A program made the position numbers and the translations under genes. A stretch of DNA of 46,380 bases from contig NZ_JAGAXX010000025.1 of NCBI RefSeq assembly GCF_017940815.1, forward strand, positions 1-46,380, given 5' to 3'. Origin of the DNA: Methanobrevibacter sp. GTDB taxonomy: Archaea; Methanobacteriota; Methanobacteria; Methanobacteriales; Methanobacteriaceae. Every line of letters begins with the position of its first letter. Positions within the stretch are counted from its first letter, which is position 1. The notes under the pieces are model-generated. The model worked only from the letters and a program-made list of their open reading frames with translations. It was not told the DNA's origin and did not search any database. Shown in pieces: positions 24,913 through 29,944 of the stretch.

Positions 24913-25476
24913 ATGGTTGATAAAAAAGCTCCTGCAGATGGTTGGCCTGTAATCAGTGGCGACTATATTGTTGGAGATCCGGAAAGTCCTGTTGCAGTCA
25001 CTACTTTAGCTTCCCATATTGAGGCGGAATTGTCAGGAGCTGCTATTGCAGGACCATGTAAAACAGAAAATCTGGGAATAGAAAAGGTAGTTGCGAATAT
25101 CATTTCCAATCCGAACATCAGATTCCTGATTTTGGCAGGTGCGGAAGTGCAAGGTCACATCACAGGTCAAAGTTTCAAGGCTTTGCATGAAAACGGTGCG
25201 GACCCTGAGAAAAAGAAAATCATCGGTGCAACCGGTGCGATTCCCTTCGTTGAAAACGTTCCTCTCGAAGGTGTTGAAAGATTCCAGCAACAACTGGAGA
25301 TTGTGGACTTAATCGACACAGAAGACATTGGAACCATCCAATCTAAAATCAATGAGTGTGTTGAAAAGGACCCTGGGGCTCTTGAAGCTGAACCGATTGT
25401 CATGGAAGTTGACGAGGAAGAGCAAAAATTAAAGATTGTCGATAAGAAAAAGGAAAAAGCTGAATCTGAGGCATAG
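24913..25476 (+). CDS. mtrA: MtrA-like corrinoid protein without membrane anchor
   Basis: This protein is related to subunit A of tetrahydromethanopterin:coenzyme M methyltransferase, the corrinoid carrier of methyl groups in the energy-conserving membrane complex. It shows VKGPAP-like opening residues [21 protein letters not shown], then [27 protein letters not shown] and [11 protein letters not shown], with the cobalt-ligand histidine at residue 82. Bona fide MtrA is about 235-240 residues with a C-terminal transmembrane helix. This copy is 187 residues, ends in a Lys/Glu-rich tail with no helix, and is not next to other mtr genes. It is therefore a soluble paralogue, perhaps working with another methyltransferase. 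GGAGGA precedes the start. Confidence 0.88.
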
Positions 25477-25601: not shown

Positions 25602-25628
25602 TTTTGCATTTTTTTAAAAAATGCAAAA
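25602..25628 (+). promoter_or_regulatory. 27-bp palindrome abutting a TATA box
   Basis: TTTTGCATTTTTT (25602-25614) and AAAAAATGCAAAA (25616-25628) are exact reverse complements around a single central base. The TATA box TTTATATA starts three bases later, so the palindrome covers the TFB-recognition position. This is a strong operator candidate controlling the gene at 25849 and possibly the HsdS/HsdM-like pair beyond it. Confidence 0.55.
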
Positions 25629-25770
25629 CATTTATATACTACTTAAAATATATTATAATTTGCAGTCGAAAAAATGTAATTTTTAAAAAAATACAATATA
25701 AACAGTTAAGTTTAAATACTATGAATAATTAAATATGATTGCAACAATGCATAATCTTTAAAAAAATGCA
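25616..25770 (+). repeat. Iterated AAAAAATGCA element
   Basis: Copies or close variants occur at 25616-25625 (AAAAAATGCA), 25669-25678 (AAAAAATGTA), 25685-25695 (AAAAAAATACA) and 25761-25770 (AAAAAATGCA). The first is the right arm of the 27-bp palindrome and the others lie in the leader region. Low-complexity A-tracts reduce confidence, but the recurring TGCA/TGTA/TACA end is not explained by A-richness alone. Confidence 0.4.
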
Positions 25771-25848: not shown

Positions 25849-26190
25849 ATGAACGTGATTAATTGGAGCGAAAAAGTAAGAGATTTAGATCAGAACATCA
25901 GAAATGAAATTGGCCTTGAAGGAGAAAATGAGGCAAAACACATCTTAATTAAGGTGCAAACCAAATCCTCCGAACCTATTGAACCTGCTTTCATCGTTGG
26001 AGAAGATGATACATTCCTCGATTTATTCGTATTGTCTCCACAAGGTTCCGGATTAACTTCCACTGCCGTGTTGAAAGACAACATCCAAAGTGTTGGAGTA
26101 ATCGGAGGAGTTTCTGCCGAAAAAGTAGAGCCATCAGAAATTTCTGATGAAACACCACTCATTGAAGATTCAAATCCACTGTACCAATAG
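25849..26190 (+). CDS. Unknown acidic protein preceding the HsdS/HsdM-like genes
   Basis: This 113-residue protein has no recognised family. The start ATG follows GAGGTAATAAT. The first 35 residues look helical (NVINWSEKVRDLDQNIRNEIGLEGENEAK). The middle is strand-rich (HILIKVQTKSSEPIEPAFIVGEDDTFLDLFVLSP), and the tail is acidic and probably disordered (VEPSEISDETPLIEDSNPLYQ). There is no signal peptide. It has a long regulated leader with a palindrome and repeats, and it is separated from the following HsdS-like gene by two perfect hairpins. It may be a separate abundant protein rather than part of that pair. Function unknown. Confidence 0.7.
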   Translation: MNVINWSEKVRDLDQNIRNEIGLEGENEAKHILIKVQTKSSEPIEPAFIVGEDDTFLDLFVLSPQGSGLTSTAVLKDNIQSVGVIGGVSAEKVEPSEISDETPLIEDSNPLYQ

Positions 26191-26219
26191 TTAGTTTTTG
26201 GCCCACCACCAAAAACTAA
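26191..26219 (+). terminator. Perfect 11-bp hairpin after the 113-residue gene
   Basis: TTAGTTTTTGG (26191-26201) and CCAAAAACTAA (26209-26219) pair perfectly around the loop CCCACCA, starting at the first base after the stop codon. There is no T-run after it, so it is not a canonical intrinsic terminator. It may be a processing or stability element or a protein-binding site. Confidence 0.55.
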
Positions 26220-26255
26220 TGCTCATTCCACCCCACCATTACATAACAATTGAAC

Positions 26256-26301: not shown

Positions 26302-26871
26302 ATGAAAAAAGTAAAACTAGAAGATATGGCAGAAATATTCTCAGGATTGTCCTATAGACGTTACTTGGATGAGACTGGAGATAACTTCCGGGTCATCGTT
26401 CAAAGGTCCATCAAAAAGGATGGGGAGCTATCTGACTTTGATGAATTGAGCCTTAAGAGCAACATTAAGGAAAGATACTTCACAAGAGAGAACGATGTTC
26501 TGATGAAAATGCCCCATCCATATGATGTAGTATGTGTTAAAGAAGAGGGACTGGTTGTAAGCGATAGGATTGCTATCATAAGGCTAAAAAAAGATTATGA
26601 TCCTGATTTTATAGCACACTTGCTCACTAATGCCCATATAAGAAAGCAGCTTCATGATTTGGGAAGCAGCGAAAAGATTCCTCACACATCACTTAAGGAA
26701 ATCAAGCAACTGGAACTGATTGTGCCTGACTATGACACCCAATTGAAATATGGGATGCTTTTGAACACCATCAATGACAAGATCCATGAGGACCTTCGCC
26801 AGGTCACATATGACCGCAATCTAAAAGAGGCAATATTGAACGAACTGTGGGGAGATGACGATGAGATATAA
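26302..26871 (+). CDS. Half-size type I specificity (HsdS-like) protein
   Basis: This protein resembles one target-recognition domain plus one conserved helical spacer of type I restriction specificity subunits. It opens VKLEDMAEIFSGLSYRRY, as HsdS half-repeats do, continues with a TRD including RENDVLMKM...GLVVSDRIAIIRLK, and ends with DPDFIAHLLTNAHIRKQL, IPHTSLKEIKQLELIVPDYDTQ and the coiled-coil helix around 150-182. At 189 residues it is about half the usual roughly 400, so a homodimer would be needed to make a bipartite DNA-binding unit. Its last 17 bases overlap the start of the HsdM-like gene, indicating co-translation. No HsdR is present in the window. Confidence 0.82.
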   Translation: MKKVKLEDMAEIFSGLSYRRYLDETGDNFRVIVQRSIKKDGELSDFDELSLKSNIKERYFTRENDVLMKMPHPYDVVCVKEEGLVVSDRIAIIRLKKDYDPDFIAHLLTNAHIRKQLHDLGSSEKIPHTSLKEIKQLELIVPDYDTQLKYGMLLNTINDKIHEDLRQVTYDRNLKEAILNELWGDDDEI

Positions 26872-28534
26872 ATCAAAAAACTATAAAATCCTGAAAAACC
26901 TCATATCCAAGTCAAGAAGATTCAACCTGCCTTCTGAAATCGACTATATCATAATATACACATTCTTATACAAATATTGCTCAGATAACCTAAAGGACCA
27001 TTTTATGATGGTGCTTCAGGATAAGGAAATGACTCTTGATGAGGCGTACGGTGATGAATATCAGCATGAGATGCTTAAGGAGGATGCCATGCACCTCTTT
27101 GGATATCACATCAAAAGGCCTGAAGCGTTCATCGATGAGGTAATAAACAATAACTATTCTGACAGATTCTTCCTTTCAATGTTCTTTAGAGTATTTTCCG
27201 AAAACATTGAATTCGATGAAAACAGCAAGGACAAGCAATATTTTGAATCATTATTTAAAACATTAAAAGATGAATTGAGCGTTAAGGAATATGAATTCGA
27301 TAACGAAATGGATTTGGCAATCAAGGAAGTCATCTATGCAATTTCAAAACTTGATTTGTTTGAAAATGCATTCGAGTTTAGAAAAGTGTTCGATTTGATT
27401 TCAGCCTCCAGACTAATGCATATAGATTCAAATCCACAATACATCTCACAAATCTTATCAACACTGATTGCCTGTGAAAAAACATCCATCAGGACAGCTT
27501 ACGATCCATTCATGAAAGACGGATCCTCTCTGATGAGTCTTTCAGACTTGTGTGAAACAGGAGTGACATATTTCGGTAAGGAAGAGGATAAGCTAACCTA
27601 TTATTATACGATAGCAAGGTTCTTTATCAATATCTTTTATCTGGACCATGTTGTGTTCAAAAATGAGGATGCAAAGCAGTCAATTGATATTGAAGGCGCA
27701 TCATTTGATGTTATTCTCTCAGAAATTCCAGTATCCATCAAGAATTATTATTCCGCCAACAAGAATCAGAGTTTCGAAATGGCAAAAAGGAACAAGCGCA
27801 ATGAACTTGAGGACATGCTGCTTGAGAAGTTCGGCATGAACAGCGACTCATTCTCAAAGGATTCGGCATTGAACAGTGCTCTGGAAAACCTCCTTGAAAA
27901 GATTGATGTCGAAAAGGACTCCAAGGATGACCTCGTTGGGGAGTATGAATCATTGAAGGATAATGAGTTTTTATTCCTAATCAATCTCATAGATGCCCTA
28001 AATGATGATGGAATAATGGCAATATCCATTTCACAGAACTTTTTGTACAAAAATTCCCTCCAGATACTTAGAAAATATCTAGTTTATGAAAAAAATTACA
28101 TTGACACCATAATAAGCATTCCCGAAGAGTTGGGAAGGAGAAAGCCTGAAGTCGTGATTGTGTTTAAGAAAAACAGATCAAACGATGATGTCCTGTTCAT
28201 AGACATGTCAAAAGAGTTCAAGACACAGAAAGGCGATAGGCTGTTCCCGGGACTGTTTAGAAGAAATCTGATTTTGGCAAATGAAACAATAAATAAGATG
28301 AAGGATGTTTTCACCAATAAGCTGACAATTGAAAAGTTTTCCAATGTTGTAAAAATCGATGAGGTAATTAAAAACAACTTCAACCTGTCCGTTTCAAGAT
28401 ATGTCGACACTTTTGAGGGGGATTTCATAAAGCTTGAAAACCTTGCCTCAGAAAAAAGGGAAATTGATGAAAACGTCAAAAAATTAAATTTAAAAATAGA
28501 AAAAATGATGGATGAGTTAGATATCAGATTCTAA
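26855..28534 (+). CDS. HsdM-like protein with degenerate methyltransferase motifs
   Basis: This 559-residue protein shows the layout of a type I N6-adenine methyltransferase subunit: a helical N-terminal domain (1-190), a Rossmann-like core (200-460) and a C-terminal helical tail that normally contacts HsdS. The core segments LNDDGIMAISISQNFLYKNSLQILRKYLV and YIDTIISIPEELGRRKPEVVIVF match HsdM well. Both catalytic motifs are lost. The SAM-binding DPxCGxGG position reads DPFMKDGSS (217-225), and the NPPF motif reads SEIPVS (289-294). It is therefore probably inactive as a methylase and may act as a DNA-binding scaffold with its overlapping HsdS-like partner. The start at 26855, or the ATG two codons on, is plausible. 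Its 3' end overlaps the convergent ARPP-1-like gene by 18 bp. Confidence 0.82.
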   Translation: MTMRYKSKNYKILKNLISKSRRFNLPSEIDYIIIYTFLYKYCSDNLKDHFMMVLQDKEMTLDEAYGDEYQHEMLKEDAMHLFGYHIKRPEAFIDEVINNNYSDRFFLSMFFRVFSENIEFDENSKDKQYFESLFKTLKDELSVKEYEFDNEMDLAIKEVIYAISKLDLFENAFEFRKVFDLISASRLMHIDSNPQYISQILSTLIACEKTSIRTAYDPFMKDGSSLMSLSDLCETGVTYFGKEEDKLTYYYTIARFFINIFYLDHVVFKNEDAKQSIDIEGASFDVILSEIPVSIKNYYSANKNQSFEMAKRNKRNELEDMLLEKFGMNSDSFSKDSALNSALENLLEKIDVEKDSKDDLVGEYESLKDNEFLFLINLIDALNDDGIMAISISQNFLYKNSLQILRKYLVYEKNYIDTIISIPEELGRRKPEVVIVFKKNRSNDDVLFIDMSKEFKTQKGDRLFPGLFRRNLILANETINKMKDVFTNKLTIEKFSNVVKIDEVIKNNFNLSVSRYVDTFEGDFIKLENLASEKREIDENVKKLNLKIEKMMDELDIRF

Positions 28535-29473
28535 TATGGTATCCTCAATTAATTCATCATTTATTTTATCCTCTATTTTCTTGAAGTAGGACCAGTGTAT
28601 GACTTTATTCTTAAAAAGATACATTGTTCCAATCCCTTCCTGATTTTCAAAGATGTATCCTTCCTCAAGCCCTTCGCTTTCTTTTTTTGTAAATGATGAA
28701 TTGCAGGCATTGTTGATTACATATTCGGCGGCGTCAACATCTATTGGAAATGCCTTTTCGTTAATGTCTGCATCAATAATATAGCTTTTCAAAATCTTTG
28801 CATGGAATTCCTTGTATATCTCTGAGTTTAGGAATATTTCAAAACCCTTGATTTCACCGTCTATGATGATCACAACACCATTTTGCCCATCAACGATTTT
28901 GAATCCTTCGACAATCTGGTTATGGTTCACCTTAAGGTTTTCATAGCTCTCTTCCATTGCTGCGGTACTTGAAGAGAATGAATTTGCATGTTCCAGCTCG
29001 TCGATGGATGACCAGATTACATCCTGGAAATGATTGGAGTCCCTTGATGCACATTCCTTTGCCACTCTTGTCCTGTAGTTTGCAATATAGTTTGATTGCT
29101 TGAATTCGCTTTTATATCCCCATCTGTTTTTTTCGGTACAGCTGACTGGGACCTTCATCTCGCTTTTGGCGTCAATCAGTATGGTTGAGTTGACTATTCT
29201 GTTCTGATCTCCTCCAACAACCTCTTCACCATCGATTAAAATCAAGGGGGTCACTGATTTGTTTTTGACGATTAGGGTGTTCACCTGTGAGGTTTCACAT
29301 TCCTTGACTTCAACAAGGCCCAATTCAAAACCTTTCTTGAGTGTTAGGATGTCAATATAATTCCTTTCGGTTTTCAGTGGGATTATTGCGATGTTATTGT
29401 TTACTTGGGGTTCCAGGAATTCTATTTGAGGATTTATGCTAATGTCATTTCCAATGCTTATCATTTTTATCAT
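28517..29473 (-). CDS. ARPP-1-like domain protein
   Basis: This 318-residue protein resembles the ARPP-1 domain, a family found with ADP-ribosylglycohydrolases and rhodanese-phosphatase-like proteins in NAD-related gene neighbourhoods. The telling region is LGLVEVKECETSQVNTLIVKNKSVTPLILIDGEEVVGGDQNRIVNSTILI, followed by VPVSCTEKNRW with a conserved Cys, and the long helical segment with YIANYRTRVAK. There is no signal peptide. Biochemical function is not established. Its ATG immediately follows the stop (TAGATG) of the HIRAN gene, so the two should be co-translated. It converges on the HsdM-like gene. Family assignment is from pattern memory and less certain than the overall gene call. Confidence 0.72.
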   Translation of the reverse strand: MIKMISIGNDISINPQIEFLEPQVNNNIAIIPLKTERNYIDILTLKKGFELGLVEVKECETSQVNTLIVKNKSVTPLILIDGEEVVGGDQNRIVNSTILIDAKSEMKVPVSCTEKNRWGYKSEFKQSNYIANYRTRVAKECASRDSNHFQDVIWSSIDELEHANSFSSSTAAMEESYENLKVNHNQIVEGFKIVDGQNGVVIIIDGEIKGFEIFLNSEIYKEFHAKILKSYIIDADINEKAFPIDVDAAEYVINNACNSSFTKKESEGLEEGYIFENQEGIGTMYLFKNKVIHWSYFKKIEDKINDELIEDTILESDI

Positions 29474-29845
29474 CTAGTATTTCAGTTCCAATTCTGATGG
29501 ATTTTCGCTTAGGTAATGGACATCGCTTTCAGGATTTTCAATTTCTGCGATGTATTCATCGGAATCCAATACCTTTGCTATTGCAAGCTTGCCGTTTATA
29601 AATTTGATTTTAGCAAAGTATTCATCAGTTATCTTATCATATAATCTGCCTGAACTCATTGTTCCTTTAATAACGCTATGTGTACTGTTTGCAAGGTATC
29701 CTATTTTTCCGAAGTGTCTCATTTCACAGGATATCGCTTCAGCGTCATATTTGTTGTCAGGTTCTTTTACTAATTTGATAATCCCTTCTAATTTGAGGGG
29801 TTTTGCCCCATGCATGTCTTCAAATGCAATTACAGTTATGTACAA
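29474..29845 (-). CDS. HIRAN-domain protein
   Basis: This 123-residue protein essentially consists of a HIRAN domain, a small beta-barrel that in HLTF and related proteins binds single-stranded 3' DNA ends at damaged or stalled replication sites. The signature appears as LIKLVKEPDNKYDAEAISCEMRHFGKIGYLANSTHSVI (residues about 20-60). I choose TTG 29845, preceded by AGGTGA at five bases, giving MYITVIAFED; the GTG at 29854 is part of that ribosome-binding site. It is directly followed by the ARPP-1-like gene. A role in DNA repair or stress is inferred from the domain. Confidence 0.78.
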   Translation of the reverse strand: MYITVIAFEDMHGAKPLKLEGIIKLVKEPDNKYDAEAISCEMRHFGKIGYLANSTHSVIKGTMSSGRLYDKITDEYFAKIKFINGKLAIAKVLDSDEYIAEIENPESDVHYLSENPSELELKY

Positions 29846-29944
29846 AATTATCACCTTGTGAATATATTGTGTGTTAAACTATATAAAAATATGTGATTAA
29901 ATGTAGTTTAGGTTTAAAAATAAAAAGAGAAATTAGTAGTAGAA

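Follow-up and report, generated by a model that had tools for sequence, protein, structure and literature searches.

It is established for EcoR124I, EcoDXXI, NgoAV and engineered enzymes that half-size specificity (S) proteins of type I modification systems can form homodimers, whose targets are interrupted palindromes (PMC3874165, PMC6158711), and such half-HsdS dimers have been likened to homodimeric repressors (PMC6158711). M.AhdI, termed a 'Type 1 1/2' methyltransferase, is likewise composed of separate M and half-size S proteins (2M+2S; PMC3874165), and functions as the active methyltransferase of a Type II system. In the hsdRSMS operon of Staphylococcus xylosus, which encodes both HsdR and a long HsdS, a short S protein of 191 aa (hsdS_short) is encoded directly 5' of hsdM; this short S is conserved, never occurs within a full-size HsdS, is required for correct methylation and is toxic if expressed alone (PMC10030836). 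In M. ruminantium M1 an HsdM has been annotated (PMC7772410), which is not equated here with the M gene described below.

The subject of this analysis is a pair of overlapping genes (termed here S and M) within a 46,380-nucleotide stretch of DNA from Methanobrevibacter sp. (contig NZ_JAGAXX010000025.1; termed here the window). The first gene, S (26302..26871, plus strand), encodes a half-size HsdS-like protein of the hsdS_short type (189 aa, consisting of one TRD plus a helical region), which matches Pfam Methylase_S (PF01420) at 3.8e-6 and the PADLOC type I specificity models at 6.9e-16 for the best of them; its orthologues at 36 other loci are 61-94% identical. The second gene, M (26855..28534, plus strand), encodes an HsdM-like protein of 559 aa that matches Pfam N6_Mtase (PF02384) at 1.6e-27, chiefly over the C-terminal half; sequence comparison also relates this protein to the HsdM structures 3lkd (profile E 1e-38) and EcoR124 (2e-34). 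Both frames are intact, and they share 17 bases. AlphaFold models of M and S, built from ten-sequence alignments, were of low confidence (pLDDT 50 and 38), and hence no structural claim is based on them. No HsdR gene lies beside the pair in the window, and at the other loci the neighbors are fixed housekeeping genes; the sole HsdR-like trace in the window's own genome is a 345-aa ORF, located on a different contig, that matches HSDR_N in part. The same genome also contains a BREX-like island (L091, G000:C87) with a PglX gene (cut by the contig end), a BrxHI-like helicase and a BrxD-like ATPase.

When M is aligned with eleven intact HsdM proteins of the same genus, it is seen to have lost the GEFYTP, DPTCGSGS and NPPF motifs together. 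At the former motif I (residues 216-226; 27500..27532, plus strand) YDPFMKDGSSL replaces YDPTCGSGSLL; at the former motif IV (residues 289-292; 27719..27730, plus strand) SEIP replaces NPPF; and after the latter comes a family-specific insertion of about 60 residues (residues ~297-360; 27743..27934, plus strand), opposite which canonical HsdM has a gap. The SAM-binding motif (DPxCGSGS), NPPF and GEFYTP are missing from all 37 M orthologues examined: at the motif I site most of these have Y(D/N)PFxx(D/N)(G/A)S, the glycine loop being absent from every one of the 37, and at the NPPF site most have S(K/R)IP, the form being S-x-I-P or similar. Because the same changes occur in all 37 orthologues, each of them in frame, the loss is not attributable to chance or to sequencing error. 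M retains the N-terminal FLYKYCSD region, the later core strands and, most of all, the C-terminal RYVDTFEG region; the HsdS-binding C-terminus (FNLSVSRYVDTFEG) is kept throughout the 37 orthologues, and a C-terminal segment common to canonical HsdM (FNLSVSRYVDTFEGDF; 28379..28426, plus strand) is nearly invariant. We take this segment to be the part of M that contacts HsdS in type I enzymes. M therefore presents an HsdM fold (as indicated by PF02384 and by the structures matched by sequence) and an S-contact region (the RYVDTF region), together with neither a SAM-binding motif I (DPxxGSGS) nor a catalytic motif IV (NPPF/Y), and HsdR is not encoded with M and S; judged by sequence, then, M does not qualify as a methyltransferase, nor the pair as a restriction-modification system. 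METTL14 is similarly an inactive methyltransferase partner, whose fold was retained for scaffolding and nucleic-acid binding after its active site was lost. METTL14, however, pairs with an active partner, whereas no active M was found with the present pair. The original prediction, which was made from this DNA alone, had placed both frames, overlapping and unbroken, exactly where they are found here, had noted that no HsdR accompanies them and had recognized that DPFMKDGSS and SEIPVS stand where canonical HsdM has DPxCGSGS and NPPF; alignment to HsdM, the check that it proposed, bears out both losses across the orthologues. It had overlooked the loss of GEFYTP, the insertion and the retention of the S-binding C-terminus.

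Set against the described systems, the pair resembles hsdRSMS in that a conserved S protein of half size (about 190 aa) is encoded immediately 5' of hsdM, and in its kinship to short S proteins (to those within the genus only); unlike hsdRSMS, it has neither an HsdR nor a long HsdS alongside, and its M lacks the catalytic motifs. Like M.AhdI, it comprises a separate M and a half-size S, and by this analogy an M2S2 assembly on an interrupted palindrome would be expected; unlike M.AhdI, its M is unlikely to be active, given the motif loss. The best sequence and fold matches to M are the EcoR124I-type HsdM and its relatives (PDB 7bst, 3lkd and 2okc), with which it shares the conserved C-terminal S-contact region and from which it differs in lacking the catalytic and SAM motifs, in its insertion and in having a half-size partner.

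The probable source of the pair is a kind of operon still present in the genus, where several canonical type I operons, similar to hsdRSMS (PMC10030836) and with intact motifs, contain a half-S gene of about 184 aa directly before hsdM, plus a full-size HsdS. Archaeal type I operons at four loci (L049, L050, L053 and L196) have this accessory half-S arrangement, as in the staphylococcal hsdRSMS. In the S tree all of the half-S proteins--that is, the orphans and those of intact hsdR-halfS-hsdM-hsdS operons--form a single clade (support 100/99), which stands apart from the halves of full-size HsdS, several branches being long. This suggests that the orphan pair derives from the short-S/HsdM part of an hsdRSMS-type operon. 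Outside the genus, too, there are orphan half-S/HsdM pairs whose motifs are partly degraded: (i) in the sister genus g39 (L186-L195 and L199) they occupy a different conserved locus and read YDPCCGS(A/S)S and SxIPF; and (ii) in a second sister genus, g38 (L198), a single complete genome (n=1) has one, likewise away from the present locus, with DPTCNSGS and KPPF. Since the g38 protein falls inside the canonical clade of the M tree, its change appears to be independent; for g1 and g39, the shared S-x-I-P hints at a single inactivation, the M tree being unrooted.

A profile search finds M at full length and free of stop codons in 40 of 67 genomes of the genus, the remaining 27 lacking it, and at all 37 loci examined in detail a half-S gene adjoins M at the same locus. 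The usual gene order is mtrA, UP (described below), S and M, often followed by ARPP-1 and HIRAN genes, and then by phosphoribosyltransferase, oxidoreductase and hemC genes; mobile or defense genes were not found as neighbors of the pair at this fixed locus, and the M profile, run against viral contigs, detected no relative. In the window, the adjoining MtrA-like protein (24913-25476) is a stand-alone form of 187 aa, the MtrA model having 238 positions, and the ARPP-1 and HIRAN-domain genes (28517-29854, minus strand), which are present in many, though not all, orthologous loci, are convergent with M. Distances between M proteins follow those between the neighboring oxidoreductases (Mantel r 0.69; 0/999 permutations), and the pair is inherited vertically at a fixed locus. 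It is also under purifying selection: among close pairs, M has a pairwise dN/dS of 0.04-0.12 and S has comparable values; these are approximate because dS is near saturation in several pairs, yet they exclude values near 1. In all 561 pairwise comparisons S is the better conserved of the two proteins; within the genus sample its identity is at least 53% in each comparison, and its TRD is well conserved genus-wide, while M changes quickly by the standards of core genes (median identity 44%). In the canonical type I loci of the genus this order is reversed, with identities of 89-91% for HsdM, 67-77% for half-S and 30-40% for full-size S.

The gene upstream of S, termed here UP (25849..26190, plus strand), encodes a 113-aa protein of no known family that is conserved across the genus. 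UP is present at all 37 loci carrying the pair, and the pair is seen only together with UP; conversely, UP occurs without the pair in four genomes (G010, G025, G055 and G101). UP is preceded by two tandem promoter-like boxes, each with a dyad ahead of it. The palindrome TGYATTTTTTNAAAAAATRCA adjoins the TATA box of the UP promoter region: here a perfect dyad (TGCATTTTTTTAAAAAATGCA; 25605..25625, plus strand), candidate operator 1, lies directly upstream of that box (about 25631-25638), and a degenerate copy (25675..25695, plus strand), candidate operator 2, precedes a second, TATA-like box (about 25711-25718). The best match to the dyad has 0-4 mismatches at all 37 loci with the pair (at a few of these its score does not exceed that of their top shuffle), and it has 5-7 mismatches in all four genomes that retain UP but not the pair, these being few and their flanking DNA having diverged. 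Matches with no mismatch occur at the UP promoter only, across 24 genomes; for the window, the dyad has a chance probability of 0.05. Because it is co-conserved with the pair and lost where the pair is absent, the dyad is treated here as a candidate operator for the complex, whose binding to it we infer from this co-conservation. The spacing of its conserved bases is compatible with a type I target, a fit that is not diagnostic; the dyad is A/T-rich, and another regulator could bind it.

A second cis element lies between UP and S, where most genomes have a leader stretch matching ATGCTYATTTCARCCA; in the window's clade a one-base gap interrupts the match. In the window this leader element (26218..26240, plus strand) is complementary to a trans-encoded, sRNA-like element. 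In each of ten pair-bearing genomes, one other place holds an exact copy of the leader stretch, in antisense, inside an element of about 116 bp; the copy in the window's own genome (G000:C11:25469-25584, locus L110; about 116 nt) lies just upstream of a 162-aa ORF. This element is identical in 17 genomes, and most of the genus has a recognizable form of it. It carries a TATA box of its own and is predicted to form two hairpins (z -5) around an unpaired GGUGAUGGUU, a stretch that does not vary among the aligned genomes and that complements the S-M leader. Predicted duplexes between leader and element outscore shuffles for 37 of 37 leaders (all z < -3, mean -5.6). The pairing target downstream of UP is missing or degraded in genomes without the pair, and distant lineages lacking the pair have a version of the sRNA-like element with an altered seed-side stem. 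Dyad and pairing stretch are both present at 37 of 37 pair loci and both lost in the four UP-only genomes. Rfam matches neither the element nor the locus; the element may be an sRNA in its own right or, alternatively, a structured leader belonging to the gene that follows it.

Two other roles for this intergenic region were considered. The leader element was set aside as a DNA-binding site in favor of RNA pairing, 41 of 50 differences in its core being C to T or A to G, that is, pair-preserving (a count taken over related, non-independent sequences). A TTTTGG-N7-CCAAAA repeat between UP and S was dropped as a half-S target, being present at just 12 of 37 loci; in the window the inverted repeat TTAGTTTTTGG-N7-CCAAAAACTAA (26191..26219, plus strand) follows the UP stop codon and is confined to the window's own clade. 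At 13 loci (L042, L044-L048, L072, L076, L079, L082, L085, L086 and L088), though not in the window's clade, a gene of unknown function encoding 123-133 aa intervenes between UP and S; the RNA-pairing site sits within this gene and persists where the gene is gone.

On balance we lean towards regarding the pair as a type I modification complex that has been domesticated and is catalytically dead, and that binds DNA sequence-specifically as a regulator, probably one controlling the locus that encodes it. Sequence-specific DNA binding is likely, since a target-recognition protein that stays conserved while its partner lacks an active site is naturally understood in this way. Two half-size S and two M-like proteins would assemble as in the M2S2 ('Type 1 1/2') methyltransferases; the S dimer would recognize an interrupted palindrome; and the M-like proteins, lacking SAM-binding and catalytic motifs, would serve only as scaffold and clamp, so that the complex would occupy fixed DNA sites and leave no mark. 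Its most likely role would be transcription control, including that of its own locus via the palindrome at the UP promoter. Counting against this model, the fixed TRD of hsdS_short proteins may read DNA unconventionally (PMC10030836); the rapid divergence of M and its absence from 27 of the 67 genomes also weigh against it. A broader proposal is offered tentatively, as possible and still rather doubtful: that archaea of the Methanobrevibacter group domesticated a type I restriction-modification complex as a transcription regulator, one that still reads DNA through HsdS yet has stopped marking it, that controls its own locus through the dyad operator and is itself controlled by the structured, deeply conserved sRNA, and that similar inactivation took place at least twice in the family.

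The original prediction had named chromosome organization, anti-restriction and gene regulation as possible roles, of which the last has gained support from a UP promoter palindrome lost along with the pair, and the first two have found no specific support. A nucleoid-type or chromosome-marking protein--that is, a dead complex sitting structurally on many short bipartite sites, with no specific regulon--would agree with the genus-wide conservation of the TRD and with the frequency expected of a bipartite site made of short type I half-sites (PMC3874165), but the sole conserved cis signal found marks one promoter and the pair is dispensable in 27 of 67 genomes, which makes this role unlikely. 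Quite unlikely, too, is a defense or counter-defense factor that shields target sites from restriction or poisons incoming type I enzymes through mixed subunits: fixed residence among housekeeping genes, vertical inheritance and the lack of mobile or defense neighbors all speak against it, S is conserved and not diversifying, and HsdR shows no clear link to the pair (10 of 19 genomes with it versus 6 of 18 without), even though M and S are kin to HsdM and HsdS of the same genus and a short HsdS, when produced by itself, is toxic to E. coli (PMC10030836).

M might instead still be an enzyme, its altered pocket accepting another ligand or methylating another substrate, inasmuch as Y-x-P-F-x-x-D and S-x-I-P are conserved and not random at the former motif sites, the latter also in the sister genus g39; this we judge very unlikely, for the glycine loop, the entire NPPF and GEFYTP were lost together and no new, catalytic-looking set of invariant residues was recognized in M. 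That the pair is a slowly decaying remnant, retained by chance, might be suggested by the lineages without it and by the fast divergence of M, but is scarcely credible in view of the intact frames, the low dN/dS, the 40 full-length copies of M that are stop-free over a large divergence and the floor on S identity in the genus sample. The original prediction's view of a repurposed, rather than decaying, pair is thus strongly supported, including by the fixed locus and by S being the better conserved partner; its proposed checks of dN/dS and of conserved neighbors both came out in its favor, and no close homologue was found with intact motifs and a nearby hsdR.

The pair is best called a domesticated, inactive type I modification complex. 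In the literature searched, nothing on point was found concerning inactive HsdM regulators or Methanobrevibacter methylomes, nor any documented natural case of HsdS recognition turned regulator. The co-conserved operator candidate and RNA-pairing site make the regulator reading directly testable. More generally, type I M and S genes are routinely annotated as DNA methyltransferases, yet in rumen and gut methanogens many cannot be conventional ones, which affects both methylome and restriction predictions. If the regulator reading is true, then in these archaea HsdS target recognition would have been turned into gene regulation.
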